Origin: a virus
Direction: 5' to 3' (one strand)
Virus record (IMG/VR): IMGVR_UViG_3300037200_000088
Span: 1 to 64,000 of that record
Length of the DNA: 64,000 nt
In this document: positions 11,165 through 38,063 of the stretch, in pieces
Position numbering within the stretch: the first letter of the stretch is position 1
Layout: every line of letters starts with the position of its first letter
Program-made: the position numbers and the translations under genes
The notes under the pieces: model-generated
What the model was told of the DNA's origin: nothing
Database searches by the model: none
The model's input: only the letters and a program-made list of their open reading frames with translations

Positions 11165-13282
11165 TCAGAAGCTTTCAACAATGATCGCGTACCCGCTCGC
11201 GCCAGCGCCACCTGCGCCCGCAGTCCCGCCGTTATCAGCGCAGCCACCTCCGCCACCACCGCCGCCAAAGGTGCCGCCAGCACCGCCTGCACCCGCGGCG
11301 GTTAGCGATGAACCACCTCCGGCACCGCCCGCTCCCGCTAGTTGTGTGTAGGGTTTTGCGCTCGTAAAAGACGCGCCGGCGCTACCAGTAACTCCCGCAG
11401 CGCCGCCTGAGGCTTGTGTCACGCCAAACTGCGGAAAACCGCCTGCGCCACCGCTGAATACAGCGTTAATGGCAGATATTCCCCCGCCTGCGCCAGCGCC
11501 CGATGCGCCGTTGTTTGGAGTAGACCAATCGGCGTTGCCGCCATTTGGCCCTGCACCACCATTCAGACCGCCCGCGCCGCTACCACCCGAGTTGAAAGAT
11601 CCGGAATTTGCAGCGTTACCGTTTGCGCCATAACCTCCGGCCACCCCCGCCCACGCGGCAGACCCTCCCGCGCTACTGCTGCCGTTACCCGCAGGCGACG
11701 TACCATATGCCCCGCCGCTTCCGCCACCGCCGGAATTTGAGGCAAGCTGACCGCCGGCCCCGCCGCCGCTTCCGTTAGCATAGAGTAAAGTTCCGAAGCT
11801 TGTGGTGCCTCCTCCAGCTCCATTGCCTCCGGCTGTGGTAGAACTTGTCGCGGCCGCACCGGCTGAGCCACCGCCGCCAATGGTAACTGTTAGAGATGTG
11901 CCGATTGCGGATATTGCAAATGTCGCTGCATTGGCTCCTCCTCCACCGCCGCCGGAGCCGCCCGAACAGGCGGCTAAGGATGCTTGAAGTGCGCCACCTC
12001 CGCCACCGCCTCCACCACCAACTAAAAATACGTCGACTTTCGCTGCACCGACGGTTGGAGTGTAAGTTGCCGCGCCGCCCGATGTCGTGAGTGTACAGCC
12101 ACTTGCGCATACGGTTATGATGTTCGTTTTATGGGACCACGTAATGTTTGCCTGTCCTGTCCCACAAAAAACAGAATTTGGCGAAGCAAATGCGATAAGC
12201 TTGTTGAGTGGGCCGATAGTTGTGCTTAGCGCGGTTAAGTCAATGTCCATCGCGCAAGTTCCACTCCCGGATTGCTGGAACAGCGTATTGTCAACGCTTA
12301 TATAGGGAGCGCTTATTCTTATGTTTGCTATTGTCGCAGTGTCGACCGCAACGCCATCAACAACATCAGAGTATCCATTGAGTTGCATATCATACTGTGG
12401 ATATAAACCGGATACGGCTTGCCAAGTGTGGGTCCCAGGACCAAAGTGGTTATTACCCGTTGCATTATCTATGATGTTAGATATCGACGCGCTGGTAGCT
12501 ATCAGCCCGGTAAAATCGCTGTCACTAGCGCCGTTTTCGAGATCGTGTGGGGGCAGATCAGCTAAAACACTGTAGCAAGTATGGCCGGTATCGTTTACGT
12601 TTTGAATGAGATTTCCGGTTCCAAGAGACTCTTCATAGCCTCCACTAGCTGTTCCATTTTGAGTTGCCGTTTGAAACCTAACGTTCGATCCCGTCATGGA
12701 AGCGTTTGCTACGTTCCGATAGACTACATTGTATGACGTAAAACCGCGAGAATAAGCGATGTCGAGATCATGAGCCGCAAGGCAGTAACCGTCTACCCGC
12801 AGGTTATTGAGACTAATCTGGACAAGTGTGCTGGCAACACCCTCTGTTAGAACCGAAGCGGGCGGCGTCGCACATCCCGGCATGACTCGTATCGTCGCCC
12901 CAGCAGAAGCTCCATTTATCACAAGCGAAACTGTCGTCGGGAGACTTACCGTGGCGGCGCATACGTTATACGCCCCGCTCGGCGGCGGCGGCAGATACAA
13001 CGTCCCTCCGCCGTCCGCAGTCAGTTGCGTGATCGCCGCGTTGATCGCCGCGCTATCATCCCCACCCGTTCCCGCCGATGCGTTGAAGTCCATCGGTGTG
13101 CGCGTCCACGCGGATCGTGTCGACGCGGAAGCTGCTGCCGAGCCGCCGTTCGCCGTGTACGGAACAGACGCCGACGGACCATTGAAATCCGCGAACGCGG
13201 GCGCGATGAACAGCCAAACAAACGCGAATAGCGCGAACCCGGCGCGCATCCTCGAAGCCGCGCGAGAGAGCAAGCCGCGCAT
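11165..13282 (-). CDS. Tailspike/fibre with pectate-lyase-like N-half and Gly-rich C-half
   Basis: 705 aa. An N-terminal hydrophobic segment ending 'WLFIAPAFA' looks like a Sec signal peptide. 'DDSAAINAAITQLTADGGG' near 80 is the pectate-lyase-superfamily start of a right-handed beta-helix. From about 425 the protein is an extreme Gly-rich region ending 'GYAIIVESF', as in phage fibre tips. It overlaps the next gene by one base. It probably recognises or degrades host surface polysaccharide. Confidence 0.7.
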   Translation of the reverse strand: MRGLLSRAASRMRAGFALFAFVWLFIAPAFADFNGPSASVPYTANGGSAAASASTRSAWTRTPMDFNASAGTGGDDSAAINAAITQLTADGGGTLYLPPPPSGAYNVCAATVSLPTTVSLVINGASAGATIRVMPGCATPPASVLTEGVASTLVQISLNNLRVDGYCLAAHDLDIAYSRGFTSYNVVYRNVANASMTGSNVRFQTATQNGTASGGYEESLGTGNLIQNVNDTGHTCYSVLADLPPHDLENGASDSDFTGLIATSASISNIIDNATGNNHFGPGTHTWQAVSGLYPQYDMQLNGYSDVVDGVAVDTATIANIRISAPYISVDNTLFQQSGSGTCAMDIDLTALSTTIGPLNKLIAFASPNSVFCGTGQANITWSHKTNIITVCASGCTLTTSGGAATYTPTVGAAKVDVFLVGGGGGGGGGALQASLAACSGGSGGGGGGANAATFAISAIGTSLTVTIGGGGSAGAAATSSTTAGGNGAGGGTTSFGTLLYANGSGGGAGGQLASNSGGGGSGGAYGTSPAGNGSSSAGGSAAWAGVAGGYGANGNAANSGSFNSGGSGAGGLNGGAGPNGGNADWSTPNNGASGAGAGGGISAINAVFSGGAGGFPQFGVTQASGGAAGVTGSAGASFTSAKPYTQLAGAGGAGGGSSLTAAGAGGAGGTFGGGGGGGGCADNGGTAGAGGAGASGYAIIVESF

Positions 13283-20253: not shown

Positions 20254-21765
20254 TCAGAATTTGATAATGACGAAGCCATTGGCGCCGGTCCCGCCGTTGG
20301 CCGTGCCGCTGGCGCAGGCGCCCCCGTTTGACCCGCCGCCTGGAAACAGACCGGCCGCACCGACAGGACCGATGACCCCCCAATTTGGCGCGCCACCCCC
20401 GAATGGTGAGCCGCCGCCCGCGCCGTTGACAGGGAGCGCGCCAGATCCCGTGCCGGTGGCTGAGCCGATACCGCCCTGCTCGCCGTTCAACTCGATTTGA
20501 GCACCGAAGCCGCTGCCACCGACGCCCGGAACGTTGATCGCGTTAGGCGACCCGCCGCCGCCGCCGGTCGCATAAACCGGCGTGGTTGACCCAAAGGTGG
20601 TCGTGCCGCCAGCGCTGCCGTAATTGGCGCCGATGCCCCCGGTGCCGCCGGCTCCCACCGTGACGGTGATCACCTGCCCGGGCGTGACCCCTACGTCGTA
20701 CGCGTGCGCGTAACCACCGCCGCCGCCGCCGCTCGATGATGCGTTGGTCCCGGAGGAGCCGCCACCAGCGCCGCCAGCGCCCCAGAGTTCAACCTCTTTC
20801 AGGTTGTAGAGTCCCGCCGGAACCGTCCATGTGGTTGAAGAAAGAAACGGTATTACCTGCGATATGGCTTGGCTGTCGGTGTAGACGCCTAGCAACTGAG
20901 CCGACGACCCGGTGTTGGAAAAGAGAGTGTTCGCGCTGGCCTGAATGTCGTTTTTCTGGCAAGGCGTCCCATCCGCCCGGGTAATGGTCAACTGGCCGAG
21001 CGATCCGATCTGGATCGTGGGCGTCGTTGTCTGGTTATTGTGAGCGACGTCCACCAAGTAGAGTTGGCCCTGCTTGTAGGCCGTGATCGCCGGCGCAAGA
21101 TTGGTGACCTCGATCGCGTCGGCCGCGCCACTGTCCGCGCCGAAATACGGGCCGACGCCATTGACGCTGGCGCTGGTGCTGTAGGCGTCGATCAGTTGGA
21201 CGCCCGAACCTGTATCGGCGAACAGCGTATCCGCGCCGGCCTTGATGTCGTGCGGCTGGCAAGGCGTCCCGTCCGCCCTGGTGATCGTTTGCACGCCGAT
21301 CGAATTGATCTCGAATGTCGGCGTCGTGGTCAGATTGTCGTGCGCGACGTTGATCAGGAAAAGCTGGCCGGCGACATAACCGGTAATCGAGGGCGAGAGA
21401 TCGGTAACGTGGATAGCGTCCGCCGATCCGCTGTCGATCCCGTAGTAGGGGCCGAGGAACCCGGTAGGCGGCGCGGGAAGATTGGCGGCGATGACGGCTT
21501 CGAGCGCCGCCAGAAACTCCGCCTCAAGCGTCGCAACATTGCCATCGTCGTTGACGTTGGCCGACTGATGATCGGCGGTAAATTGCGCAATCATGGTCGC
21601 GACGACGCTCGCTTGGCGCATCGCATTGTTGAAGGTCACCGGGTCGGCAATGCCGATTTGCGCACCGAGTTGGCGGATCGTCGCCGCAGCATAAGCCGCT
21701 GGTGTCGCAGGTATATTCGCGCCAACCCCAGTCGCCCAGGTGACAAATTCGTTGGTGGGAGGCAT
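20254..21765 (-). CDS. Tail fibre with tandem repeats and Gly-rich tip
   Basis: 503 aa. An N-terminal helical part (to about 95) is followed by two tandem repeats of about 75 residues, each with 'GP(Y)(Y/F)G.DSG.ADAI.VT' and 'TITRADGTPCQ'. The 'FLSSTTWTVPAGLYNLKEVE' strand leads into a Gly-rich domain ending 'GFVIIKF'. This is the architecture of a phage fibre with a Gly-rich receptor-binding tip, like 11165-13282. Confidence 0.75.
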   Translation of the reverse strand: MPPTNEFVTWATGVGANIPATPAAYAAATIRQLGAQIGIADPVTFNNAMRQASVVATMIAQFTADHQSANVNDDGNVATLEAEFLAALEAVIAANLPAPPTGFLGPYYGIDSGSADAIHVTDLSPSITGYVAGQLFLINVAHDNLTTTPTFEINSIGVQTITRADGTPCQPHDIKAGADTLFADTGSGVQLIDAYSTSASVNGVGPYFGADSGAADAIEVTNLAPAITAYKQGQLYLVDVAHNNQTTTPTIQIGSLGQLTITRADGTPCQKNDIQASANTLFSNTGSSAQLLGVYTDSQAISQVIPFLSSTTWTVPAGLYNLKEVELWGAGGAGGGSSGTNASSSGGGGGGYAHAYDVGVTPGQVITVTVGAGGTGGIGANYGSAGGTTTFGSTTPVYATGGGGGSPNAINVPGVGGSGFGAQIELNGEQGGIGSATGTGSGALPVNGAGGGSPFGGGAPNWGVIGPVGAAGLFPGGGSNGGACASGTANGGTGANGFVIIKF

Positions 21766-24438: not shown

Positions 24439-25941
24439 TCAAAGCCCCCCTGTCGCCCCGGCGCTGTCCGCGTCCGCGTCGGGGAAGGATTGGATCGCAA
24501 CGATGTCATCCGCCGTCGGCTCGATTTCCGCCGCCATCGCGGCGATCAGCGCTGCGATTTGCGGTCCGGCCAGCGTGGCGGCGACGGCGAGTTCGTTCGG
24601 ATCCAGGCTGACGCCCATCGAGCCGGCGAGCGCCGCGAGCTGTAGCGCGGGCAGCGCGGCCTGCAACGTCGCAATCGCTGAGTTGGCGTTGGTCATCAGC
24701 GCGTTGATCTGCGCCGTCATGGCGGTGAAAGCCGCCATAGCCACGGCTTGGCTAGTTTCCGTAGAGAGCACGCCGGCCGTCAACCCCGTGACCTGGGCTT
24801 CTATCGCCGCGAGCGTCGAGGCGCTTTGCAGCGGTGCGAGTACGGCTGAGAGCGAAACCGGCGTCGGCGGATCGATTCCGAAATATTGGGTTATGTTCTG
24901 CGCCTGCGCCACGACGTCCGTGAGGCCGTACGCGCCTCCGGTTGGCGTCGTAGCCCCGGAAAGGGCCGATACGCCCGTCTCCAGCGCCCCTACGGCCGCC
25001 GAGAGGCCTCCCGAGCCGGTTAGCGCCGAGACGAGGCCAGCGCCGGCCCCGCCGAGCGTCGAGGTCAGTGAGGAGGCGGCCGAGGTAATCGCCGAGGTCA
25101 GGGAAGACGTCGCGGCTGCGGTCGGGCTCGAAAGCAGCGAGCTTATACCGACCGACATCACCGTCGACATAATCGAGGAGATCTGGCTCGATCCGGACAT
25201 TGGCGGCGGTATCGGCTTGGTCGCGACCAGTTTTCGGTTGGCGAAGGTCATTCCCGGCGAAGGCAGCGGGCTTTGCTGAATCGTGTTGATCAAAACCTTG
25301 GCGGCGTTTTTGATGATGTTGCCGCTGGGAAGATGGATGGTCCCCGCCGCACCGCTGCCGCCAGTCGCGCCGCCGCTGCTAACCCCGCCGCCGCCGCTGC
25401 CGACGATGACCAGGTGCTTGACCGTCGAGGAGTGCGTGATCCCATTCGAGGGGTGGACATCGCTGACGTGGTTGCCGTTGTCGGAGCGGTTTTGCTGCGA
25501 GGTGGTCGACGGCGGCGGATTGAGCTTGCGCGGGTCGGATCGGCCGCCTGGCAACCAGCGAGAGTCGGCGAGATGGTGCGTCCTGTTGTCGATCGGGTCC
25601 TGAATACCGCCTTTTTGGTGCCAGAGATCCTGGGCCCGGCTGAGAAACTGGACGATCCCCTCGTCGCCCTTTTTTACCGGGTGGGTGTGCGATACGCCGC
25701 CCCCGTTGGGAAAGTGCACGGGGCTGGTATCGAGCGGGGGGAACGCGATCATTTTGACCGTGCCGTCCAGCATGGTGATCGCGAGATTGACGGCGGAGCT
25801 CGCGGTCGCGATATGCCCATTGCTATCCTGCGAGATGATCGCTGGCAGTGAGGTCCAGATACCCTTCAGCGCGCCGTTGACAGCCTCCTCAACCGCGTCC
25901 ATTTCCTGCGCGGCGTTCATCTTGATGCGCAGGACGTCCAT
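24439..25941 (-). CDS. Baseplate spike, Gp138-type N-terminus, long Ala-rich tail
   Basis: 500 aa. Residues about 1-130 ('MLDGTVKMIAFPPLD', 'GGGVSHTHPVKKGDEGIVQF', 'RTHHLADSRWLPGG') match the OB-fold Gp138 N-terminal domain of tail spikes. Residues about 230-500 are an unusual low-complexity Ala/Ser/Thr region of short helices, probably a long coiled or bundled tip. Its ATG overlaps the hub stop. Confidence 0.75.
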   Translation of the reverse strand: MDVLRIKMNAAQEMDAVEEAVNGALKGIWTSLPAIISQDSNGHIATASSAVNLAITMLDGTVKMIAFPPLDTSPVHFPNGGGVSHTHPVKKGDEGIVQFLSRAQDLWHQKGGIQDPIDNRTHHLADSRWLPGGRSDPRKLNPPPSTTSQQNRSDNGNHVSDVHPSNGITHSSTVKHLVIVGSGGGGVSSGGATGGSGAAGTIHLPSGNIIKNAAKVLINTIQQSPLPSPGMTFANRKLVATKPIPPPMSGSSQISSIMSTVMSVGISSLLSSPTAAATSSLTSAITSAASSLTSTLGGAGAGLVSALTGSGGLSAAVGALETGVSALSGATTPTGGAYGLTDVVAQAQNITQYFGIDPPTPVSLSAVLAPLQSASTLAAIEAQVTGLTAGVLSTETSQAVAMAAFTAMTAQINALMTNANSAIATLQAALPALQLAALAGSMGVSLDPNELAVAATLAGPQIAALIAAMAAEIEPTADDIVAIQSFPDADADSAGATGGL

Positions 25942-26915
25942 CAGGTTCCACCCAATTGGGCGGAAGAGAAGGTTTCGGCGGGCGTCGGCGCCTGGCCGAG
26001 CACGTTCATCGCGAGGTCCTGATACCAGGGCGTCCCGCGCGTGTCGGCGTCGACGTCGATCCGATAAATCCTGTAAATTCCGTCGCCGGCAACCGCCGCC
26101 ATGTTGATCGCATTGGGCAAATAGTTGGGGTCAATCGATCCGTCCGAGAGAAGCTGCGGAAGCATGCCTTGGACCAGCGACTCATCAATATGCACCAAGC
26201 TATGGAACTTTAGTTGTGGATTGATCAACGACCTTGCGTACAGGCCGCCGGTTTCGAGCGTCGGCATGCCGATCAGGCCAGTCAGCGTGTTCAATTCGGT
26301 CGCGCCGCCGGGGATCGCATCGTTGGGCGTGACCAGGTGCACCAGCGCATTTTGGATCGAAGCCGTCGCGCCCTTGGATTTGGCGACGTCGTTCATCAAT
26401 TTCCACGCCATGCCGAACAGCGCGATCGAGCGCGGGTAGACCGGCGTCGAGAGCTGAACCGACGGTCCAACAAAGCCGAGGCCAACGCCGAACTGTTTCA
26501 AGGCGGCGATCGACGTGTTGACGATATCGTTCGGCGTCGAGCCGGGCGGAAGCGTCTTGTTGACTTGCGCGTAGGTCTGCGCCTGCCCGCCGTCCGAGGC
26601 TAGGATCGTCGTCATCGTGTCGGTCGGGTTCTCGCGGCCGTAAATCGCCTTGCGCAGATCGCCTTGAAAGATCAGCCCCATGTTCCCGACGTAACCGGCG
26701 CTGATCGAAACGTTGCTGCCCTCCGCCTGCGGGGCACAAAGCGCCTTCGCAAGCCCGGGGTTCTGGTTGGTCAACAGGATCGTCGCCGTATTCGGCTGGT
26801 TGAGCGTCGATTGCTTGATCTTGAAACGGACGCGGATGCTGCCTTCGTTGGCGTCATAGGTTTTGCCGATATAGGCGAAGGTGACCGCGCATTGGCGGAT
26901 GTAGTTGGCACTCAT
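25941..26915 (-). CDS. Baseplate hub / tail protein
   Basis: 324 aa from ATG 26915 (MSANYIRQCAVTFAYIGKTY). The sequence 'IRVRFKIKQSTLNQPNTATI', 'VSISAGYVGNMGLIFQGDLR' and 'YRIYRIDVDADTRGTPWYQD' matches the hub family upstream of Gp138-type spikes (gp27/Mu gp44 role). It forms the channel base onto which the spike attaches. Confidence 0.75.
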   Translation of the reverse strand: MSANYIRQCAVTFAYIGKTYDANEGSIRVRFKIKQSTLNQPNTATILLTNQNPGLAKALCAPQAEGSNVSISAGYVGNMGLIFQGDLRKAIYGRENPTDTMTTILASDGGQAQTYAQVNKTLPPGSTPNDIVNTSIAALKQFGVGLGFVGPSVQLSTPVYPRSIALFGMAWKLMNDVAKSKGATASIQNALVHLVTPNDAIPGGATELNTLTGLIGMPTLETGGLYARSLINPQLKFHSLVHIDESLVQGMLPQLLSDGSIDPNYLPNAINMAAVAGDGIYRIYRIDVDADTRGTPWYQDLAMNVLGQAPTPAETFSSAQLGGT

Positions 26916-27223
26916 GCCGCTATGTACAAATGAGCGGAACTTCCTAGATTGAAGAAACGCGGCACGGCGTCGGGATCTGCATCGGTAGCGCAGTACATTT
27001 GGCAACCGAAGTTCAAATACTCATATTGAGCCAGCAAGTCTGCCCCGGTAACCAACGGAATGCCTTGCACCAGAGGATTGTCGTCGCTGTCGGCGATATC
27101 CAACTCCCAGCAATCATTTGGCGTGAAGAGATAGATCAGCCTCAAGTTATAACTCTGCCCATTGGGGAAAACGACCGAAAGCGTTTGAGGCTGCGGCGTC
27201 AGCGGGACTTCGTAGACCGTCAT
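26912..27223 (-). CDS. Baseplate plug protein (DUF6983-like)
   Basis: 103 aa from ATG 27223, which overlaps the Dit-like stop (ATGA). 'YEVPLTPQPQTLSVVF', 'WELDIADSDDNPLVQGIPLV' and 'TGADLLAQYEYLNFG' then 'NLGSSAHLYI' are the characteristic blocks of the phage baseplate plug family. It fits between Dit and hub. Confidence 0.85.
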   Translation of the reverse strand: MTVYEVPLTPQPQTLSVVFPNGQSYNLRLIYLFTPNDCWELDIADSDDNPLVQGIPLVTGADLLAQYEYLNFGCQMYCATDADPDAVPRFFNLGSSAHLYIAA

Positions 27224-27909
27224 GGCGAATAGGCCGTGGGCGCCCCAGCGCCGGCTGGGACGAGGCTTTGCGTGCCGGCCCCGGTGACGTCGTTCGGAAA
27301 CGTCATCGCGCCGAAAGCGTCGGGGGTGACCGAGCCGGCCGGAATCGTCGCGACGCCATTGCCGACTTGCGGCGTCGGAACGCCGCTCGGGTTGTTGGTA
27401 ATCGATCCGATTTGGCTTGACCCGTTGGTGTTGGCGGGCGTCGTCGCGCTCATCGTCGTGTTGGTGATGACGATATGCTGCGCGGTCGCGACGCACATCA
27501 GCGTATATTCGGAATCCGGGTCGGTCTTGACCAGGAGCGTGCGCAGCAACATCGAGGAATATTGGCGTTTTCCAGTCGAGATGTTGAACGGCGTTTTCGA
27601 GGCTTGCAGCGCGAGAAATGCCGCATAAACCGCTTGGACGTAGCCGGAGGTTTGCGCGTTCGAGTCCGACCAGCCGCAACGGATTTCAACCGTGTAGGGC
27701 TGAAGGAAGGCGTGGTCGGTGACTGGCGTCCCGTATTCGACGGGATGCTGGGTGATCGCCAATTCGTCGTTGTGTGTCTCCTCGACGACGACGTGGGGAT
27801 AGAGGTCGCCGATCGAGCGGACGCCAGGTTGAATCAACGCGTAATTTGCCGAGGTGTCGCCGATCAGCGGGCCGAATGTCGACGCAGCCGAAACGATGTT
27901 GTTTGCCAT
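27220..27909 (-). CDS. Dit-like distal tail protein
   Basis: 229 aa. ATG 27909 is used because it overlaps the upstream stop (TGATG). 'GDLYPHVVVEETHNDELAIT', 'EYGTPVTDHAFLQPYTVEIR', 'GYVQAVYAAFLALQASKTPF' and 'TGKRQYSSMLLRTLLV' match the N-terminal domain of Dit-like proteins. The C-terminal 70 residues are a low-complexity Gly/Pro/Thr tail. Confidence 0.85.
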   Translation of the reverse strand: MANNIVSAASTFGPLIGDTSANYALIQPGVRSIGDLYPHVVVEETHNDELAITQHPVEYGTPVTDHAFLQPYTVEIRCGWSDSNAQTSGYVQAVYAAFLALQASKTPFNISTGKRQYSSMLLRTLLVKTDPDSEYTLMCVATAQHIVITNTTMSATTPANTNGSSQIGSITNNPSGVPTPQVGNGVATIPAGSVTPDAFGAMTFPNDVTGAGTQSLVPAGAGAPTAYSP

Positions 27910-29771
27910 CACGGACTCGCCGCTTGCAGGGCTTGGCTCAAATCATCGTTGACGCCCTTTTGCGCGCCGTGAACAAGCCGCGCGACGGCGACTGGGTCGC
28001 CGGTTCCGTCGACGTGGATCGTAGTTTGCGTCGGCGCGTTGATATGCGTGTCGCCGCTGGCCCCGCCCAAGATCGGCGGGCTCGCCATTGCGCCCGAAAT
28101 GAGCGGTCCACCAAACGCCGGGATTTGCATAGGCGGTGTGGGCGCCGCGTTCGGCCGACTCAGCGATCCTGCAAGAGCGCCGTAATCCGGGTGAACGTCC
28201 GTTCCCGGCGGGAGCGCCTGAAAGTTGGCCCCGGCGCGAGCGGCTTCGCTTCTCAGCGTCGAGTTTACCTCGGCGGACGCGCCCGGATAGTTGCCCAGGG
28301 CGCTTGAGAGCGACCCGACGCCAAGGACTGTGATCCGTTTCGGATCGGCGCCCTTGTCGATTGCGGCCTGAATTTGCTGGCGGATCGTGGCCGCGGCGTG
28401 CGGCTCGTTGGATGCACCGCTCGAGATGACGACGTCTTTGCCGGCGAGGCTTTGCCGATAGGCGGAGATTCGCTTGGCGACCCAGTCGGGCGTCTTCCCG
28501 ACCACCGCGTTGTCGCTATCGGCGTGAAGCGCGCCGGCCAAGCCCGCGCCGATGCTATCGCCGAAGATGACCGTGCCGCCGCCGAGCGGCGCGCCGCTCC
28601 TGGCCGGCGGGGCGTTGGCGTCCGGCGAGGCGCCGGAAGGCACACGCACGGCTGGCGTAGCGGGCTCTCCCCCGCCAGCGCCGACCAGACCCTTAGCCCA
28701 ATTCCAGGCTTTCGACGCACCGCCTTTCCAGTCCCAGGCCGGCGCATCTTTCTGGTCATTTAGGCCCTTGACTATATCGGCGGCGGGCGGGTTTACCGCA
28801 CGGTCGGCCTGATTGAGCATGCTGCCCGGCGTGTTGACCGAGCCATTCATCCAGACCAGCCAACCGACCAGGCTGTGAAACCGCATCGCGATATCGGCGA
28901 TCGAGTCCGCAAGTCCTTTGACCAGCATGCGGAAGTCGCCCAATTCGTCTGGCTGGCCCAGCACGGCGCCAAAATCCTTGACCCATGCCGCTGTCATATC
29001 AGCGAGCGCTTTGGTTACCTCGCCGATCGCCTCGCCGATCTGAGCGCCGTTGGCGGTAATGAAGTCGTCGAAAGCCTGCATAGGCGCGGTGAAATCACGC
29101 TCTAGCGCCGAGCCGATCATGTCGGCGATGGCGCTGAGCTTGTTCGAGACGTCGCGCCAGATTGTCTGAAAGTTCTTACCGTCGATCGCCGCCTGCTCGA
29201 TATTGAAACCAAGCGACTTGCGATAGGCCTCGAAACCGGCCAGATCGGGCAAGACCTCGTCCAAGTGCCGCTTCATCAGCAGGATCGGCTGCGCGGAAAT
29301 GCCGACGACGGAGGCGAGGTTTTCGACCTGCTGGACGCTCAAGTTTCGCAGGTTCTCCAGCATCTCCTGCTGAATTTCGAGCTTTCCGGTAGTCGCGTCG
29401 AGGCCGAAGCCAAGCTTATTGAGTACCGAAATGTTGTTGCGATTTTCGCGAAGCTTTTGCGCAGCCGCCTCGAGTAGGCTGCTCGCCTCAGCCGCATTGC
29501 CCCCGTATTTCTTGATCAGCAGCGGAAAATCGTGGGCTAGCCCCGCCGAGCTATTGGCGCGCTGCGCGGCGAAGTAGAGATCGTCGAATTTAGTCGCCGC
29601 CTCCTTGACCGCCTCGCCGACCTTTTTGGCGATTTCAACCAACAGATCGCCGAGCAGTTGAGCCTTGAGCGTCGCGCTCGTAATCGCGGCCTCAAACTGA
29701 TGCTGGTCGCGCTTGCCCCTCTCGGTATCCCAGCCGAGCGCAATCAGGAATTCGCGCAATGTTTCGGCCAT
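27909..29771 (-). CDS. Tape-measure-like protein 2 with C-terminal SGNH hydrolase
   Basis: 620 aa. Residues 1-320 are a helical tape-measure-type domain clearly paralogous to the next gene upstream ('EFLIALGWDTERG', 'TSATLKAQLLGDLLVEIAKK', 'LGFN', 'FQTIWRDVSNKLSAIADMIG'). A Gly/Pro linker leads to an SGNH/GDSL hydrolase: 'TVIFGDSIGAGLAG' (GDS at about 404-406), 'SGASNEP' (452-455) and 'DVHPDY' (525-530, Asp-x-His). This domain could remove acyl groups from the cell envelope during DNA entry. Confidence 0.75.
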   Translation of the reverse strand: MAETLREFLIALGWDTERGKRDQHQFEAAITSATLKAQLLGDLLVEIAKKVGEAVKEAATKFDDLYFAAQRANSSAGLAHDFPLLIKKYGGNAAEASSLLEAAAQKLRENRNNISVLNKLGFGLDATTGKLEIQQEMLENLRNLSVQQVENLASVVGISAQPILLMKRHLDEVLPDLAGFEAYRKSLGFNIEQAAIDGKNFQTIWRDVSNKLSAIADMIGSALERDFTAPMQAFDDFITANGAQIGEAIGEVTKALADMTAAWVKDFGAVLGQPDELGDFRMLVKGLADSIADIAMRFHSLVGWLVWMNGSVNTPGSMLNQADRAVNPPAADIVKGLNDQKDAPAWDWKGGASKAWNWAKGLVGAGGGEPATPAVRVPSGASPDANAPPARSGAPLGGGTVIFGDSIGAGLAGALHADSDNAVVGKTPDWVAKRISAYRQSLAGKDVVISSGASNEPHAAATIRQQIQAAIDKGADPKRITVLGVGSLSSALGNYPGASAEVNSTLRSEAARAGANFQALPPGTDVHPDYGALAGSLSRPNAAPTPPMQIPAFGGPLISGAMASPPILGGASGDTHINAPTQTTIHVDGTGDPVAVARLVHGAQKGVNDDLSQALQAASP

Positions 29772-31780
29772 CAGAACGTCGCGCCCTGAAGGTTTCGCGT
29801 CAGGTCCGCAGGCTGTTGCGTAATGCCAGCCGCGACCATGTGCGGGCTAGGGTTCGCCTCGCTACTGAGCCCGTCGATCATGATCTTCGTGTCCATCGGC
29901 GCGTGGATCGTCGTGCCAGCCGTTCCGGCCGCGCCGCCTAGCGTAGGTGTCTGGCCGCCCATCAGGCTACCCGTTAGGGCACCTTGCGGCTCCCAATTAC
30001 CCATCCCTTTCCAAGGATTTGGCAGATTGCTCACCGCGGGAGCGCGTGCGGGTTCACCTGCGGGCGCGTGCTGTGCTGGCTCATCGAGCGCGCCGAGCCG
30101 CCGCCCGATCGGCCCGAAATACGCAGTGCCGCTTGTACCCCAGGCGTCGGTACCGGCGGCGCCGGTATTGAGATATCGATTTGCACCGCCTACGCCCTGA
30201 TTGTGCGCATAACCCAACATTTGTAGTTGTTGCGGTTTCGACATCGCCGCGAATTTTGGATTTCGCATCAATTGGTTGTAGTGATCGAGCGTGTAGTTTT
30301 CGAAAAACCGCTCTTGCATCGCTGGATCGGCGAGAAACTCAGCGGTGCTAGGCCTCGGGACGCCGAGGCGCGCGGCGGTTTCGGTAATTTCCGCTGGGCC
30401 CATCTGGTAGCGGCCAGCGAACCGTCCGCCAGCGCCGCCCATGCGGTCGTAACGCTTACCCTCAATATCGGTCAGCCCCTCTTTGAAGGCCCCGTATTGT
30501 TCGGCACTAAAGCCGGTTCCGGTCGTCATCGAGGTCGCGTCATACGGGACGCCAGTGGGGCCCGTCGCCGCCGCGGCGGGGGCTCCCCGCAGCGGGGACG
30601 CACTCGCACCACCCCCAGGCGCGGCTTCGGCACCGCCTCCAGCCGCCGGAGGGCCGCCACCAGCCCATCCAGGGGCGTGCCTGCGATAGAAATTCTTTGC
30701 CGCGCCCCACACACCGGTCGGCGCCGAGCCATCAGCGTTCGCCTGACCGCCCGCGCCTAGCGCGCCTTCGATCGCCGCACCGCCGCGGTTGTAACTGTCC
30801 AGGTCAGATTTGTTGCCGGATAGGCGATTGAGGATATCGGCGAACTTGTCGCCGTAGCTCAACAGCAATTGGATATCTTTGATGAAGCCGTGGAAGTTGT
30901 CGGCCAATTCCTTGATCGACACCGCGAAATCGCGCATGCCATCGCGAAACGAATCGAACGACTGCGGATCGTTCATGATCTTCTGGAAGTCGCCGACCCA
31001 AGCCGTCGTCATCGCCAGCAGCGCCTTGCTGATGATGTCAATGTCGGCGCCGATTCCCTTGCTGTTCGCCGTAAGGAACTGGTCGAACGCGTTGAGCGGA
31101 CCGATCAGCGCCTTTGTCAACCCGCTCCCGATATCATCGCTGATCGCGGTGATCTTGTTGTGCGTATCGCGCCAGATCGTCGCCAGCTTATTCGCGTCGA
31201 TTTCGGCTTGCGGCAGATCGAAGCCAAGCGTCTTGCGATAAGCGGCGAGTTTGTCCATCTGCTCGAGGATGTCGTCAGCGTTCCGGCGCAGCGCCATCGC
31301 GACGTTGTCGGACATGCCGACCTGGTGTGCGCCCTGGATCAGCAGCGCCGTGCTCATGTGAGACAGGTTTTTCAGATACTTCTGCTGCAACTCCATTTGG
31401 CCGGTGATCGGGTTCAACCCGAAGCCCATCCGGTTGATGTCTTGCACCGCGATCGAGCCGGCGCGCAGCTTGGCCGCCATGCTCTCGATCGAGCCGGCCG
31501 CCTCGCCCGCGCTGACGCCAGCCTGCGCCATCACTTTGACGAAATCGCTTACCGTCGCCGCAGCTGTATTCGTCCGCTGCGCCTGGAAGTAGAGGCGGTC
31601 GAAGTTGGTCGCGACGTTCGAAACGCTATCGAGAACCTTGCGGGCGAGCTCCTCAAGGCCGTCGCCGAGCAGCCTCGCCTTGAGGGTGGCGCTTTCGATC
31701 GCCGCCTCGAACTGTTTCTGGCCGGTTTGATTGGACGCCCAGCCCAGCGAGATCAGAAACTCCTTGACGGTATCGGTCAT
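29771..31780 (-). CDS. Tape-measure-like protein 1 with lysozyme-like domain
   Basis: 669 aa. Residues 1-330 are helical and paralogous to the downstream gene ('EFLISLGWASNQTGQKQFEA', 'ESATLKARLLGDGLEELARK', 'LATIWRDTHNKITAISDDIG'). After a Gly/Ala linker (about 335-420) comes a lysozyme-like domain (about 421-570: 'FKEGLTDIEGKRYDRMGGAG', 'GRFAGRYQMGPAEITETAAR', 'MLGYAHNQGVGGANRY') with Glu near 440 as candidate catalytic residue. It would digest peptidoglycan locally at infection. Confidence 0.8.
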   Translation of the reverse strand: MTDTVKEFLISLGWASNQTGQKQFEAAIESATLKARLLGDGLEELARKVLDSVSNVATNFDRLYFQAQRTNTAAATVSDFVKVMAQAGVSAGEAAGSIESMAAKLRAGSIAVQDINRMGFGLNPITGQMELQQKYLKNLSHMSTALLIQGAHQVGMSDNVAMALRRNADDILEQMDKLAAYRKTLGFDLPQAEIDANKLATIWRDTHNKITAISDDIGSGLTKALIGPLNAFDQFLTANSKGIGADIDIISKALLAMTTAWVGDFQKIMNDPQSFDSFRDGMRDFAVSIKELADNFHGFIKDIQLLLSYGDKFADILNRLSGNKSDLDSYNRGGAAIEGALGAGGQANADGSAPTGVWGAAKNFYRRHAPGWAGGGPPAAGGGAEAAPGGGASASPLRGAPAAAATGPTGVPYDATSMTTGTGFSAEQYGAFKEGLTDIEGKRYDRMGGAGGRFAGRYQMGPAEITETAARLGVPRPSTAEFLADPAMQERFFENYTLDHYNQLMRNPKFAAMSKPQQLQMLGYAHNQGVGGANRYLNTGAAGTDAWGTSGTAYFGPIGRRLGALDEPAQHAPAGEPARAPAVSNLPNPWKGMGNWEPQGALTGSLMGGQTPTLGGAAGTAGTTIHAPMDTKIMIDGLSSEANPSPHMVAAGITQQPADLTRNLQGATF

Positions 31781-31947
31781 TTCCTTTCCGCCGCCTTGCG
31801 CGCCCGCGCGTCATTCTCCGCCTTGACGGCGAGCGCGTCATTCATGATCGCGATGTCGAGCAGGTCGAGCGTGCCGTCTTTCAGGCTTTCGTATTTGCAC
31901 CAGTTCGCCGCGACCGGCGCCAACAGCCAGTCTAGGTTATCCGGCAT
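31777..31947 (-). CDS. Small tail assembly chaperone-type protein (DUF6889-like)
   Basis: 56 aa (MPDNLDWLLAPVAANWCKYE, then 'SLKDGTLDLLDIAIMNDALA'). Its ATG lies 2 nt after the chaperone stop and its TGA overlaps the tape-measure ATG. The 'W.LAPV..W.CKYESLKDGTL' pattern matches a short family found between tail chaperone and tape measure, filling the gpT-like slot. Confidence 0.7.
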   Translation of the reverse strand: MPDNLDWLLAPVAANWCKYESLKDGTLDLLDIAIMNDALAVKAENDARARKAAERK

Positions 31948-31949
31948 CC

Positions 31950-32432
31950 TTACTGGATCGAATGTGAGGCGGCCGGATTCGCGCCTGTCAAACTTGACAG
32001 GCCGGCGGGCAAAAAACCACCGAAGGTCTCCTGGAAGACGCCTAGCGCAATGCGCAGCATGACGGTGAAATCGTTGTTGATGTCATCGAACATCGAGCGC
32101 CCGGCGTCTGCCGACCAGACCTTTGCCCAACCGATTTCGCCGTCTCGCTTGCGTTCAACCGTCGCCAGGCAAGTGCCGATAATGAACCTGCGGTCCCCGG
32201 CCGACATTTTAGCCAGCTCGCGCGCGACCGGCGTTGCGATATGCCCCAACTGCTCCAGGGAGGTCTCGGCAAGATTGCCAACCCCCTGCTGGCGCATTTG
32301 CACCAAGAGCGGCGCGAGTTCTCCGAACCCGGAGGCGAGCAACGGCGAGATTTTAGCGATGATCTCGATTTGGTCGAACGCGTTGATCCGCGACGTCTGG
32401 CGATAGACACAGTCGCCTACCCTGAATTCCAT
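31950..32432 (-). CDS. Tail assembly chaperone
   Basis: 160 aa from ATG 32432 (GGAAAGGG upstream). 'VYRQTSRINAFDQIEIIAKI', ..., 'SAGDRRFIIGTCLATVERK', ..., 'WSADAGRSMFDDINNDFTVM' is typical of the tail chaperone upstream of the tape measure in sheath (DUF3383) phages. No slippery site joins it to the next ORF. Confidence 0.65.
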   Translation of the reverse strand: MEFRVGDCVYRQTSRINAFDQIEIIAKISPLLASGFGELAPLLVQMRQQGVGNLAETSLEQLGHIATPVARELAKMSAGDRRFIIGTCLATVERKRDGEIGWAKVWSADAGRSMFDDINNDFTVMLRIALGVFQETFGGFLPAGLSSLTGANPAASHSIQ

Positions 32433-32459
32433 TCGCGTCACCCTTTCCAAAGTAAATCG

Positions 32460-32759: not shown

Positions 32760-33542
32760 TTAGATCGACGCCATCAGGAGGCCCGCTGCTAAGCCCTTTG
32801 GTCTGGCACTCCTGTTCTGAGCAATTTTGCTCATAAGGGCGCAAGATTCAGGAGATCGCTTTTTGCCACGGTTTTTCGCAGCAGCCTTGGCGCGTGCCTC
32901 AGGGGTGTGAATAAGCGCGACGCACTTGGCTATTGTTTGAGCGGAGGGCGGCGGACGGTTGCGCGCTGCGACACTTCGTCTATCGCGCGTCTCATCGCTT
33001 TGATTGAGAACGGCTTGTCTGATCAGCTCGCAGGTTTCTTTGGAATGCGCGTACCCGCTCTTAGCGCGCCTTCCGGCTACAGCCGCCGCGATATGCTCAG
33101 GCGTTCGGTTGAGAGCGGCGACCCGTTTTCTTTCCCGCGTTTCGGGCGAGTCGATACGTCCCTTTAGGGCCGCGCTTCGCTTTGTCTTTGTGAGGGGCGC
33201 CGTCCGTCTCGATATTTCCCCAATGAGCCGCTTTCCAGCCTCGGTGTGTTTATGCCCAGACGCGCCCTCGCCACCGTCCGTCAGATTGAGCAGCGGGCCA
33301 CCATGCCGATTGCGACCGATTGAAGCAATCAATGCCACTTCTAGTTCGTAGGCGGCAGCCTCGGTTAAGTTTTCGCTGACCTTCGCGATGGGAAGCTCGC
33401 CATATTTCCTAATGAGGTTGCGAAGATGCTTGTTGTGATCGCGGCGAGGCGTATAGCATCGCCGTCCGACGCCCTTTCCAACGTAGCATGGCGCGCCATT
33501 TGGGCGGAAAATCACATACACGTAGAACCGAGAATCGCTCAT
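32760..33542 (-). CDS. GIY-YIG homing endonuclease with NUMOD3 repeats
   Basis: 260 aa. The nuclease has 'RFYVYVIFRPNGAPCYVGKG' at residues 5-24 and 'NLTEAAAYELEVALIASIGR' near 60. Then 'LLNLTDGGEGASG' and at least four repeats of 'TPE(H/A)..A....R' type for DNA binding. It is inserted between the tail tube and tail chaperone genes and is paralogous to 5439-6149. Confidence 0.9.
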   Translation of the reverse strand: MSDSRFYVYVIFRPNGAPCYVGKGVGRRCYTPRRDHNKHLRNLIRKYGELPIAKVSENLTEAAAYELEVALIASIGRNRHGGPLLNLTDGGEGASGHKHTEAGKRLIGEISRRTAPLTKTKRSAALKGRIDSPETRERKRVAALNRTPEHIAAAVAGRRAKSGYAHSKETCELIRQAVLNQSDETRDRRSVAARNRPPPSAQTIAKCVALIHTPEARAKAAAKNRGKKRSPESCALMSKIAQNRSARPKGLAAGLLMASI

Positions 33543-33570: not shown

Positions 33571-34062
33571 CTATTGGGCGATCGGGAGTCCTGCTGAAAG
33601 TCCGGTGTTCATTAATCCGTTCCCCAATACTTCCGACGTCGCGATGAAGTCGAAGGCCCAGACATTGAGGCCGCCCTCGGTAGAGTAGCCGATGTCTGAT
33701 TGTTTGATGAAAGCCCCGGCGGTCGCAACAATCGCGTCGCCACTGACCGGATTTGCGATCGTCAGGATATTCTGCCCCCAGTATGCCGCCGATTTTGATT
33801 GATAGGCGTAAAGCTGGTTCATCAGCGCATTGCCCGTCGCCGTCTTCAAGAGCGAGATCGTGATGCGGCTCGCCGTCGTCGCCTTCAGCGAGTGCATGCC
33901 GTCGCCATTCGCGCCGATCGTCATCGTGTTTTTGTCAGAGGACATCGCAATGCGAATGCTCTCATCCGAGACGCCAGACGAGGCTATATCGAAGTTTCCG
34001 CCAGGGCCTGAGATAGATGCCTGAACGTCAAAGAACGAATAGACGCCACTTTGGACGGCCAT
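33571..34062 (-). CDS. Tail tube protein (DUF3277)
   Basis: 163 aa. 'GVYSFFDVQASISGPGG', ..., 'ESIRIAMSSDKNTMTIGANG', ..., 'SRITISLLKTATGNALMNQL', ..., 'NVWAFDFIATSEVLGNG' is the DUF3277 pattern. It sits directly downstream of the sheath, the normal place for the inner tube of contractile tails. Confidence 0.85.
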   Translation of the reverse strand: MAVQSGVYSFFDVQASISGPGGNFDIASSGVSDESIRIAMSSDKNTMTIGANGDGMHSLKATTASRITISLLKTATGNALMNQLYAYQSKSAAYWGQNILTIANPVSGDAIVATAGAFIKQSDIGYSTEGGLNVWAFDFIATSEVLGNGLMNTGLSAGLPIAQ

Positions 34063-34116: not shown

Positions 34117-35634
34117 TCACGGGTTGATGTTCAAAAGTACGTCAGCTATTTGCACGGCACCTGCCAACTTCGCGGCCACCTGAAATGGAACGCTGATACG
34201 TTCTTCTCGCAAGTTCTCGGCCTGCGTAGCAACAGGAGGATAATATATGTAGTACCCCTTTGTAAGTATCTGCCCGTTCTGCAATTGGCCGAAGCCATCT
34301 GCGTTCCATTGTCCCGGCGCCATCAGCCCATTGTTGATACCGGCCTCGCAGCCTGCCGCAATCGCGGTCGCGATCTGGTTAGACCCGGCATCGGTCTGCG
34401 GAATCTTCGTGCCGGTCGTGTAGAGCAAGTTGAACACGTCGGTTTGGATTTGGTTCTGCAGCCAATCGACGCCCTGGACCTCATCGAACCAGTAGCCGTT
34501 GGTCATCTGGCCGTTCCAAATCATCACCGCGCCGTTGGACACTGTGATGTTGACGTTGCCGCCCTTGCCGATCAGCGTCGCGAACTGCGTCTCGTTGAGT
34601 TGTTCGGCCTGGAGGCCCGGCGCCTGCTTGTAGGCCAGGGTCAGCGTCGTATCGTTGCCCTCGAAATCGACGGTGAAGCCGCGCCCGAACATCGTCGCGA
34701 CCGCGTAGGGGTTGAACGCCGAATACATCCAGAACATTTTGCGGTTGTTGAGCGATTGTAGCACGCTCCCCAGGTCGGCCGTTTGCGTCGGGTCCATCAC
34801 ATTTGTGTTTTGGATCGTCGTGCCGAACATGCGCTGGCGCTGGCCGGCGAGGATATAGGCGCTGATCGCGATGTAGTCGGCCTGGACGAGCTTGACGGTC
34901 GTGGCGTCCATCAACCCGTACCACTGCGAGGAGGTCGCCACGCAGGCCTGTACGCCGCTCAGCGCGCTCTCGGCGTTCTGCCCCGGGATCAGTGGCGAGG
35001 CGCCGGAGGCGGACGTAAGGCCGAGCAAGGTCGAAATGTCGGTGGTGCCGCCGATCGCCGATGACGTTGAGCCGAACGAAACCGAGGAAGCCGGGCCGGT
35101 CGTGTTGCTGGTGATGACGAATTGGGTTTCGGCGGAATTCCAGACGCAGGTAACGCCGGAGGTGAAAGCAGCGACCAGCGCGGTTTGAATGATCGACGCC
35201 ACGCCGTTCATGTTCAACGCGGCCGAGAAGTTCAGCGGTTGGATATTGGCCGCGACGCCGTTGACCGAAATGCGAAATGATCCATCCGTGATCGCGGTGA
35301 AGTTCGAGAGCAGCGCCTGAAGCGGGTTGAGCGTCGCGGCGCCCAGCATGCCGGCGGTTGCCGTGCTGGCCCAGCGGCCGATATAGACGATCGCGGGCTG
35401 CGGCGACTGTTCAAAAAACAACTCCGCCGCCAGATATTCTGGAGTGTTCGAGGCGAAGTCAACCGCGACCTCCTCAAAGCCGGAATACTGGCGGATGCGT
35501 TCATTGGTGTTGATGACGTTGGAGTCTCCCAAGATCAACAATGTACCAAAGTTCTCGAACGGGACTGCCGTCGGCGTGAACGAGACGGCTACGTTGACGA
35601 AGTCCGAGACGTCGACCGCAATCACGTTTGCCAT
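34117..35634 (-). CDS. Contractile tail sheath protein (DUF3383)
   Basis: 505 aa. The DUF3383 signature includes 'TLLILGDSNVINTNERIRQY', 'NTPEYLAAELFFEQSPQPAI', 'WYGLMDATTVKLVQADYIAI', 'LAYKQAPGLQAEQLNETQFA' and the conserved C-terminus 'GYYIYYPPVATQAENLREER'. It shows this is a contractile-tail (myovirus-like) particle. Confidence 0.92.
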   Translation of the reverse strand: MANVIAVDVSDFVNVAVSFTPTAVPFENFGTLLILGDSNVINTNERIRQYSGFEEVAVDFASNTPEYLAAELFFEQSPQPAIVYIGRWASTATAGMLGAATLNPLQALLSNFTAITDGSFRISVNGVAANIQPLNFSAALNMNGVASIIQTALVAAFTSGVTCVWNSAETQFVITSNTTGPASSVSFGSTSSAIGGTTDISTLLGLTSASGASPLIPGQNAESALSGVQACVATSSQWYGLMDATTVKLVQADYIAISAYILAGQRQRMFGTTIQNTNVMDPTQTADLGSVLQSLNNRKMFWMYSAFNPYAVATMFGRGFTVDFEGNDTTLTLAYKQAPGLQAEQLNETQFATLIGKGGNVNITVSNGAVMIWNGQMTNGYWFDEVQGVDWLQNQIQTDVFNLLYTTGTKIPQTDAGSNQIATAIAAGCEAGINNGLMAPGQWNADGFGQLQNGQILTKGYYIYYPPVATQAENLREERISVPFQVAAKLAGAVQIADVLLNINP

Positions 35635-37275: not shown

Positions 37276-38055
37276 TCAGTATCCCCGAATTTTCCTCAGC
37301 GCCGCGGCGATCATTTCGTGTTCTTCGGCGGTGCCTGAATTCTTGATCGAGTTGGCCCTCCTGCCGACAATCCAGACATTGCCGGGCTCATAGCCGCGAG
37401 ACGAGTCGATGCGATCGATCGACGGGGAATAGATACCGTCGCGAACTTCTGGTGCCGGCCAAGGATGGCCGAGCAAAGGACAGTAATCACCCATCGGAGG
37501 AATGTCGCCTAGAACAATAGTAAATGTTCGGCCCATCCGTTTAGACCGGTGCTTAGCCTCTGCATACAGGAGCTTCACTATATTATTGGCTCGGTACCTG
37601 CGCGCTCTTGCCCGAAGAACTAGGACAGGTGTGTTTTTACGGCATTTTTTGTTTGATTCTTTCGCCCGTTCGGGGTGTCGCTCGCGATACTTCTTGGCAT
37701 GAGCAATGCGACGAGCGGCGAACGCGACCGGATCGCCCGCCCTTAATTCGGCCTCATATTGCCGCTGCCGCGCAACCCTGCGCTCACGAAGCTCGCCGTC
37801 AGTCTTTGTCTTCGGTCGCCCGGTTCGCTTTATTTTCTGGTATTCGCGCAGGTCTTCGGCCGTCTTTATCTCAGGTGGGACAGGATTAAGCTCGCGATAG
37901 CGCCGCCTTCGTATGGCTGCCTTCTCGGCTTCCCTCTTGTTATGCCCCACCGGATCGATCGCTTTTCGCTCAAGATAATACTCGTGCGCGCGCCTTAGTT
38001 TACGTTCTCGCGCCTCTTCAACGCTGTATTTTCTGGGCCGTCCGGTTTTTGACAT
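37276..38055 (-). CDS. HNH / endonuclease VII-like homing endonuclease
   Basis: 259 aa from ATG 38055. A long Arg/Lys-rich N-terminal part with repeated 'GRPRK' and 'RRR.YRE' segments probably binds DNA. The C-terminal nuclease has 'GDYCPLLGHPW', 'SPSIDRIDSSRGYEPGNVWI' and 'RRANSIKNSGT', the usual layout of endonuclease VII-like HNH enzymes. It is inserted between the gp10-like gene and a connector gene. Confidence 0.8.
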   Translation of the reverse strand: MSKTGRPRKYSVEEARERKLRRAHEYYLERKAIDPVGHNKREAEKAAIRRRRYRELNPVPPEIKTAEDLREYQKIKRTGRPKTKTDGELRERRVARQRQYEAELRAGDPVAFAARRIAHAKKYRERHPERAKESNKKCRKNTPVLVLRARARRYRANNIVKLLYAEAKHRSKRMGRTFTIVLGDIPPMGDYCPLLGHPWPAPEVRDGIYSPSIDRIDSSRGYEPGNVWIVGRRANSIKNSGTAEEHEMIAAALRKIRGY

Positions 38056-38063
38056 ATACAAAC

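Follow-up and report, generated by a model that had tools for sequence, protein, structure and literature searches.

Why would a phage with a contractile tail carry two tape-measure genes side by side? The question is raised by the uncultivated virus record IMGVR_UViG_3300037200_000088 (75,113 bases), of which positions 1 to 64,000, with a G+C content of 61%, form the stretch of DNA analysed here (the window). Two consecutive minus-strand genes in its tail module encode the tape-measure proteins TMP-L, with a lysozyme-like domain, and TMP-S, with an SGNH-hydrolase domain, and a preliminary description had proposed that they are tandem paralogues with exchanged C-terminal hydrolases. This proposal is borne out. 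Residues 1–300 of TMP-S align in BLASTP with residues 1–302 of TMP-L with 131/302 identical (43%), one 2-residue gap and E=2e-79, and the N-terminal parts of both proteins match the tape-measure profiles phrog_2276 (E=9e-13 and 5e-14) and phrog_12506. Generic coiled-coil similarity is ruled out by this nearly gap-free identity, by common globular motifs and by the recurring PHROG tape-measure matches, while a single gene broken by a frameshift is ruled out because a start, an N-terminus and a C-terminus are present in both copies. Both genes also sit where a tape measure is expected, between the genes for a probably frameshifting chaperone and the baseplate hub of a sheathed tail, in synteny with the related loci L010, L011 and L012. 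No third tape-measure candidate was found in the 75-kb record, where the matches were confined to the TMP-L and TMP-S loci. At the level of sequence, the identity of TMP-L and TMP-S as tandem tape-measure-family paralogues with exchanged C-terminal hydrolases can be regarded as confirmed.

Each protein consists of a ruler region of ~400 residues, followed by the hydrolase and then by a C-terminal element common to both. The shared N-terminal region, first put at about 320 residues and called a half of each protein, is indeed homologous, but its length is ~302 residues and 'half' is inexact given the extent of the ruler. Similarly, the proteins had been said to end in their hydrolases; both domains are present, but the element that follows them had been overlooked. 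It was detected by BLASTP (TMP-S 575–620 against TMP-L 623–669, E=0.002) and is found family-wide with the consensus xIxVxGxxDPxxTAxxVxxxQ...QGA, from which TMP-L has diverged, while TMP-S retains DPxxVAxxV. The tape-measure C-termini of Mu, JBD30 and A-1(L) contact baseplate proteins such as the hub or the spike (PMC11915804, PMC11445458, PMC10966104), and by analogy with these structures the element is likely to be a hub anchor. AF2 predicts residues 2–343 of TMP-L to be almost entirely helical, with low confidence. The start of TMP-S overlaps the stop of TMP-L (TGATG), which implies coupled translation. Scans of viral contigs with full-length TMP-L or TMP-S as single sequences gave no matches, so that profile scans had to be used, and neither protein, searched singly against PDB sequences, had a match there.

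The hydrolase of TMP-L was correctly described as lysozyme-like: residues 410–555 match the endolysin profile phrog_5867 (E=1.9e-23) and, more weakly, phrog_27932 (E=0.002), and are ~40% identical to a domain in gp012 of the cyanophage S-WAM1 (a Synechococcus phage). The motifs DIEGKRYD (at 438), GRYQMG (at 456) and AHNQG (at 525) are present, and the glutamate of DIEGKRYD, aligned in both the related locus L009 and S-WAM1, is a candidate catalytic residue in a domain for which fold comparison gave no confident match. In S-WAM1 (locus L008, 687–6906) the baseplate hub gene has as neighbours two large hypothetical genes in succession, the second of which contains a lysozyme-like domain of the TMP-L type. 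The TMP-L orthologue in L009 has an extra domain after the lysozyme (L009:3423–4211), which by eye looks like an amidase of NlpC/P60 or CHAP type and has no Pfam or PHROG match.

In TMP-S, residues 390–548 were shown by modelling to adopt the predicted SGNH alpha/beta/alpha fold. The AF2 model has a pLDDT of 87 and a pTM of 0.83, and in Foldseek comparisons with the PDB, OatA, TesA and GDSL lipases are near the top with probabilities of 0.97–1.00, reaching 1.00 for OatA and TesA, and with E values >1e-3 and TM-scores of 0.5–0.6; against viral models (BFVD) the best E value is 4e-6. A profile search of PDB sequences pointed, weakly (E ~0.006), to GDSL and PAF-acetylhydrolase enzymes. No single-sequence Pfam match was obtained for this region, so that its support is provided by the family profile, the AF2 model and Foldseek. 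The sequence blocks are GDSIG (404), VGKTP (424), SSGASNEP (450) and DVHP (525), with the codons of Ser406 and His527 starting at 28556 and 28193, respectively. The GDS, GASN and DxH blocks had been read earlier from the sequence, with loss of the Ser/Asp/His triad named as refuting, and the domain passes this check only by half. The serine and histidine stand, being invariant in 22 aligned homologues together with the asparagine of block III (SGxSN), and the block II glycine is nearly invariant. The canonical aspartate is out of place: where a DxxH block V would have it at −3, TMP-S (GTDVHP) has threonine at −3 and aspartate at −2, and the position is not conserved in several relatives either. 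Scanning with the SGNH profile identified 34 viral loci (L221–L254), which outline a widespread, mostly unnamed subfamily residing in large phage proteins, nearly always beside a peptidoglycan glycan hydrolase; the unannotated, 4846-residue phrog_19273 covers part of it.

How are these two activities arranged in relatives? The virus L010 (IMGVR_UViG_3300038412_000035) has a tail module syntenic gene for gene with that of the window (sheath 71%, tube 61%, chaperone 55%, hub 58% and baseplate J 64% identical); no nearer syntenic virus is known to have a single tape measure. At the place of the window pair, its 67.6-kb record has exactly one tape-measure gene, encoding Phage_lysozyme2 (4.5e-9) and SGNH domains in a single chain. 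The pattern extends well beyond this virus. Among 19 non-redundant viral SGNH carriers (window excluded), the same chain contains a clear glycan-cutting partner in 15 (Phage_lysozyme, Phage_lysozyme2, SLT/transglycosylase, Hydrolase_2, or an endolysin/tail lysozyme profile) and a probable wall-hydrolase profile in 3/19, the last one being truncated. In TMP-S, neither Pfam nor PHROG profiles detected a glycan-cutting domain in its own chain, and the preceding gene, TMP-L, with the same ruler, has one. Since parts that are fused in some genomes and split in others are a classic sign of cooperation, the fusions in other phages strongly suggest that the glycan cutter and the esterase act together. 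Many of the carriers are large virion-type proteins lacking a tape-measure profile match, so the two activities are paired outside this ruler as well. Nor need the partner be a glycan cutter in every case, because one viral fold match, in Synechococcus phage S-H38, has an M15C peptidase annotation instead.

Profile scans of viral and genome contigs yielded 216 tape-measure loci, of which 208 had sufficient downstream sequence to judge, forming 74 clusters at 90% identity with the window left out of the count. Tandem pairs are found in 3/74 clusters (L009, L012 and L142), a rough frequency, as the collections are biased to Enterobacterales and very diverged second copies would escape detection. 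For this family, these counts support the earlier view that contractile-tail phages normally have one tape measure, tandem pairs being rare. Among 199 genomes drawn from the family of the Xanthobacter genome, two have this tape measure and both are tandem (L142 of Xanthobacter agilis, and G167), with the pairs orthologous between them (59% and 48%), while among 397 genomes from the order of the Chelatococcus genome G005 this tape measure was found in 5, and a strong adjacent second copy in none. In an IQ-TREE phylogeny of the N-terminal region (32 rows) the window and L009 copies group together (98/96), TMP-L being orthologous to L009_a (65%) and TMP-S to L009_b (61%); both L012 copies group together (93/90), and both L142 copies group with a single-copy Kaistia relative (87/99). 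On the simplest reading of this tree, tandem tape measures arose at least three separate times. The second copies L012_b and L142_b have long branches (1.84 and 1.92), which makes their placement less sure. Of the four pairs, those of the window, L012 and L142 have a TGATG junction and that of L009 has its genes ~11 bases apart, and in no tandem pair are the C-terminal domains of the two copies recognisably alike. Compared with L009, the window copies have dN/dS of ~0.23 and 0.22 at dS of ~1.5, near saturation; these estimates show both sequences to be under purifying selection.

What could two constrained tape measures do in one tail? We propose that a single tape-measure gene was duplicated in tandem to give two paralogues of one contractile tail, each of which would retain the helical ruler and the C-terminal element (hub-binding in other phages) with a hydrolase in between. 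As both activities occur in one chain in relatives, the duplication would have split, and partly replaced, a two-enzyme cassette over the two tape measures. TMP-L and TMP-S, produced by coupled translation and served by the same chaperone, would be packed side by side in one tube as a hub-anchored mixed bundle, and tail contraction would expel both into the periplasm. There the SGNH domain could strip O-acyl, probably O-acetyl, groups from peptidoglycan, which block muramidases, and the lysozyme-like domain would then cut the freed glycan strand for DNA passage. Peptidoglycan O-acetylation is established as protecting against lysozyme (PMC5697884), and O-acetylation of the host wall is presumed in the proposed esterase step. 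We infer presence in the virion, co-assembly, substrate and order of action. One tail probably delivers both enzymes at once, and we give a split two-enzyme cassette carried on two co-assembling tape measures in one tail an even chance of being correct. For the bundle itself, A-1(L) is instructive, with a six-fold TMP bundle in the lumen and only three C-terminal helices seen at the hub (PMC10966104), and so leaves space for two chain types. A heteromeric tape-measure bundle in the lumen, for example with three chains per paralogue, by which tape measures could be obligate hetero-oligomers, is a more tentative suggestion, which we lean slightly against; two chains of one paralogue with one of the other, or separate homotrimers, are conceivable too.

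Several observations weigh against this scheme. TMP-L and TMP-S are known here from genes alone. Only one genome shows lysozyme and SGNH domains divided between paralogues, since the L009 contig ends before the C-terminus of its second copy. An equal mix of two paralogues fits less easily with Mu and JBD30, where tape measures are described as trimeric (PMC11915804, PMC11445458). The rulers within pairs are not significantly closer in length than those of unrelated tape measures (permutation p=0.075, from three pairs with hand-set boundaries), which is suggestive at most. Catalysis by the SGNH domain is not assured, as its aspartate is shifted by one residue and unconserved in the family. Finally, structure prediction, confident for the SGNH domain, did less well for the other protein: the full-length TMP-L model is poor (pLDDT 52.5) and unusable for fold comparison, and with no Pfam match and no PDB match by sequence profile or fold, the assignment of the lysozyme-like domain rests on PHROGs and the motif layout (IEG, GRYQMG, AHNQG).

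The alternative that survives best concerns the esterase step and is compatible with co-assembly. The SGNH domain may act on something other than peptidoglycan O-acyl groups, such as lipopolysaccharide, capsule or membrane lipid esters, as not only OatA and PatB but also TesA, GDSL lipases and PAF acetylhydrolase are among its neighbours in fold, and many phage SGNH-fold domains are found on tail fibres or other tail proteins. Most carriers of this subfamily, however, combine the domain with peptidoglycan glycan hydrolases in one chain, and tape measures are known to be set free, in all likelihood, beneath the outer membrane, so we regard another substrate as doubtful. It is also possible that only one paralogue, probably TMP-L, is the ruler and the other a virion cargo or pilot protein, which borrows the N-terminus for tube entry and the C-terminal element for the hub. 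The divergence of this element in TMP-L but not in TMP-S means that the two need not occupy the same place at the hub, and the branches of L012_b and L142_b are as long as expected for copies freed from the ruler role. In the window lineage, though, both copies are equally constrained and their N-terminal halves are in register apart from the one short gap, making a ruler with its cargo unlikely in our view. The full set of parts in each protein would equally allow the paralogues to be alternatives, with a homo-oligomer of either in each tail and hence two virion types that differ in their wall-cutting enzyme; yet coupled TGATG junctions predict near-equal synthesis, and other carriers hold both enzymes in one chain and hence in every virion, so that we consider this quite improbable. 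That one copy is redundant or decaying and of little importance, as the unusual SGNH aspartate position might hint, is hardly credible when the copies are so diverged, the duplication predates the split from L009 with both N-terminal orthologues persisting, dN/dS is low (~0.22) and the Xanthobacteraceae pair also persists in diverged orthologues.

The two genes belong to a minus-strand contractile-tail module that runs from sheath and tube through an endonuclease-like open reading frame (ORF) and the chaperone to TMP-L and TMP-S, and continues downstream with phrog_817, the baseplate hub (phrog_196), a spike-like gene, a gp25-like wedge and baseplate J (Table 1). The chaperone gene contains a slippery T TTT TTG heptamer at 32016–32010 (−), from which the −1 frame is open to a TGA overlapping the ATG of TMP-L; this is likely to be the usual G/GT programmed frameshift, here serving two tape measures. 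The ORF between tube and chaperone (32760–33542, −) matches NUMOD3 weakly and, by eye, resembles GIY-YIG proteins at its N-terminus; no match was found at the corresponding place in the syntenic L010 and L012, and this lack of a counterpart makes a mobile homing endonuclease probable. In the head-tail region, an HNH-like-looking ORF (37276–38061, −; IDRIDSSRGYEPGNVW...) that has no Pfam match is possibly a second mobile endonuclease. Two tail-fibre-type genes (20254–21765 and 11165–13282, both −) have a common C-terminal glycine-rich domain, PF21722, and may represent another duplication of tail parts in which the ends were exchanged.

Table 1. Positions in the window of the two tape-measure genes, their parts and neighbouring tail genes.
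Feature	Position	Strand	Basis
TMP-L, first tape-measure paralogue, 669 residues, with lysozyme-like domain	29771..31780	−	ORF; phrog_2276, phrog_12506, phrog_5867
Conserved helical N-terminal segment, TMP-L residues 1–300	30881..31780	−	
Lysozyme-like domain, TMP-L residues 410–555	30116..30553	−	phrog_5867, phage tblastn, alignment with L009 and S-WAM1
C-terminal element, TMP-L residues 623–669	29774..29914	−	BLASTP, family alignment
TMP-S, second tape-measure paralogue, 620 residues, with SGNH domain	27909..29771	−	ORF; identity to TMP-L
Conserved helical N-terminal segment, TMP-S residues 1–300	28872..29771	−	
Predicted SGNH-hydrolase domain, TMP-S residues 390–548	28128..28604	−	22-sequence alignment, AF2, Foldseek
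C-terminal element, TMP-S residues 575–620	27912..28049	−	BLASTP, family alignment
Tail sheath (contractile tail)	34117..35634	−	phrog_205 E=9e-106
Tail tube protein	33571..34062	−	position and synteny; phrog_280 E=1e-27 (PHROG label: virion structural protein)
Single tail assembly chaperone (gpG-like)	31950..32450	−	phrog_1688 E=6e-19
Probable −1 frameshift extension (gpGT-like)	31777..32016	−	three-frame translation, motif position
Baseplate hub	25941..27005	−	phrog_196 E=4e-52

Our search of the literature found no description of tandem tape-measure paralogues, which is not proof of novelty. Reports on SuMu, Shady, phiCbK and Bt 0305phi8-36, and a paper about repeats within tape measures, seemed to describe two tape measures or paralogues and were rejected as cases of paired genes, since they dealt with homologues in databases, forms of the chaperone, split chaperones or internal repeats. 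The number and equivalence of tape-measure chains per tail are unsettled (trimers in Mu and JBD30 versus the six-fold bundle of A-1(L)), and a phage with two genetically distinct chains, matched in N-terminal length, represents a natural labelled version of the chain-number experiment. The fused-versus-split pattern points to a functional pair of esterase and glycan hydrolase, apparently delivered together by phages, and suggests for the SGNH domain a substrate that can be tested. If the bundle is heteromeric, gene duplication would be a repeatedly used way of loading two different peptidoglycan enzymes into one tail with no chain lengthened.

How does this arrangement compare with known systems? 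The predicted fold of the TMP-S domain, its GDS serine and its SGxSN and His blocks resemble those of the SGNH peptidoglycan O-acetyltransferases of OatA/PatB type, although it is only ~15% identical to them, its canonical aspartate is out of place and its activity is predicted. The small myophages Acinetobacter Ab105-1phi/AP22, Klebsiella Mulock, Elizabethkingia EKP1 and Salmonella SEN34 have a homologous N-terminal ruler, placed between chaperone and hub, and a lysozyme or SLT C-terminus, the wall hydrolase often being C-terminal as in the window, and the annotated chaperone frameshift of Mulock is comparable to the heptamer described here; they differ in having one tape-measure gene each, without SGNH in those aligned. 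The tape-measure-type protein of Helicobacter pametensis prophage BK070131 (~890 residues) has an SGNH domain 39% identical to that of TMP-S, but is encoded by a single gene, with a T4-type Phage_lysozyme domain coming after SGNH on one chain. L010, for all its synteny, 39–40% tape-measure identity and SGNH domain, also has both enzymes on its single tape measure, with a lysozyme of a family other than that of TMP-L. In the virus L012 and the Xanthobacteraceae prophages L142/G167, adjacent tape-measure paralogues likewise have different C-terminal domains, with lysozyme2 and SGNH versus a domain that by eye resembles M15 and lacks a Pfam match in L012, and Peptidase_M15_4 (3.5e-14 and 6e-13) versus an unnamed domain, cell-wall-hydrolase-like by eye, in L142/G167. 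The L012 and L142 pairs even share the TGATG junction with the window, and the duplications that produced them appear to be independent of the one that gave rise to TMP-L and TMP-S.

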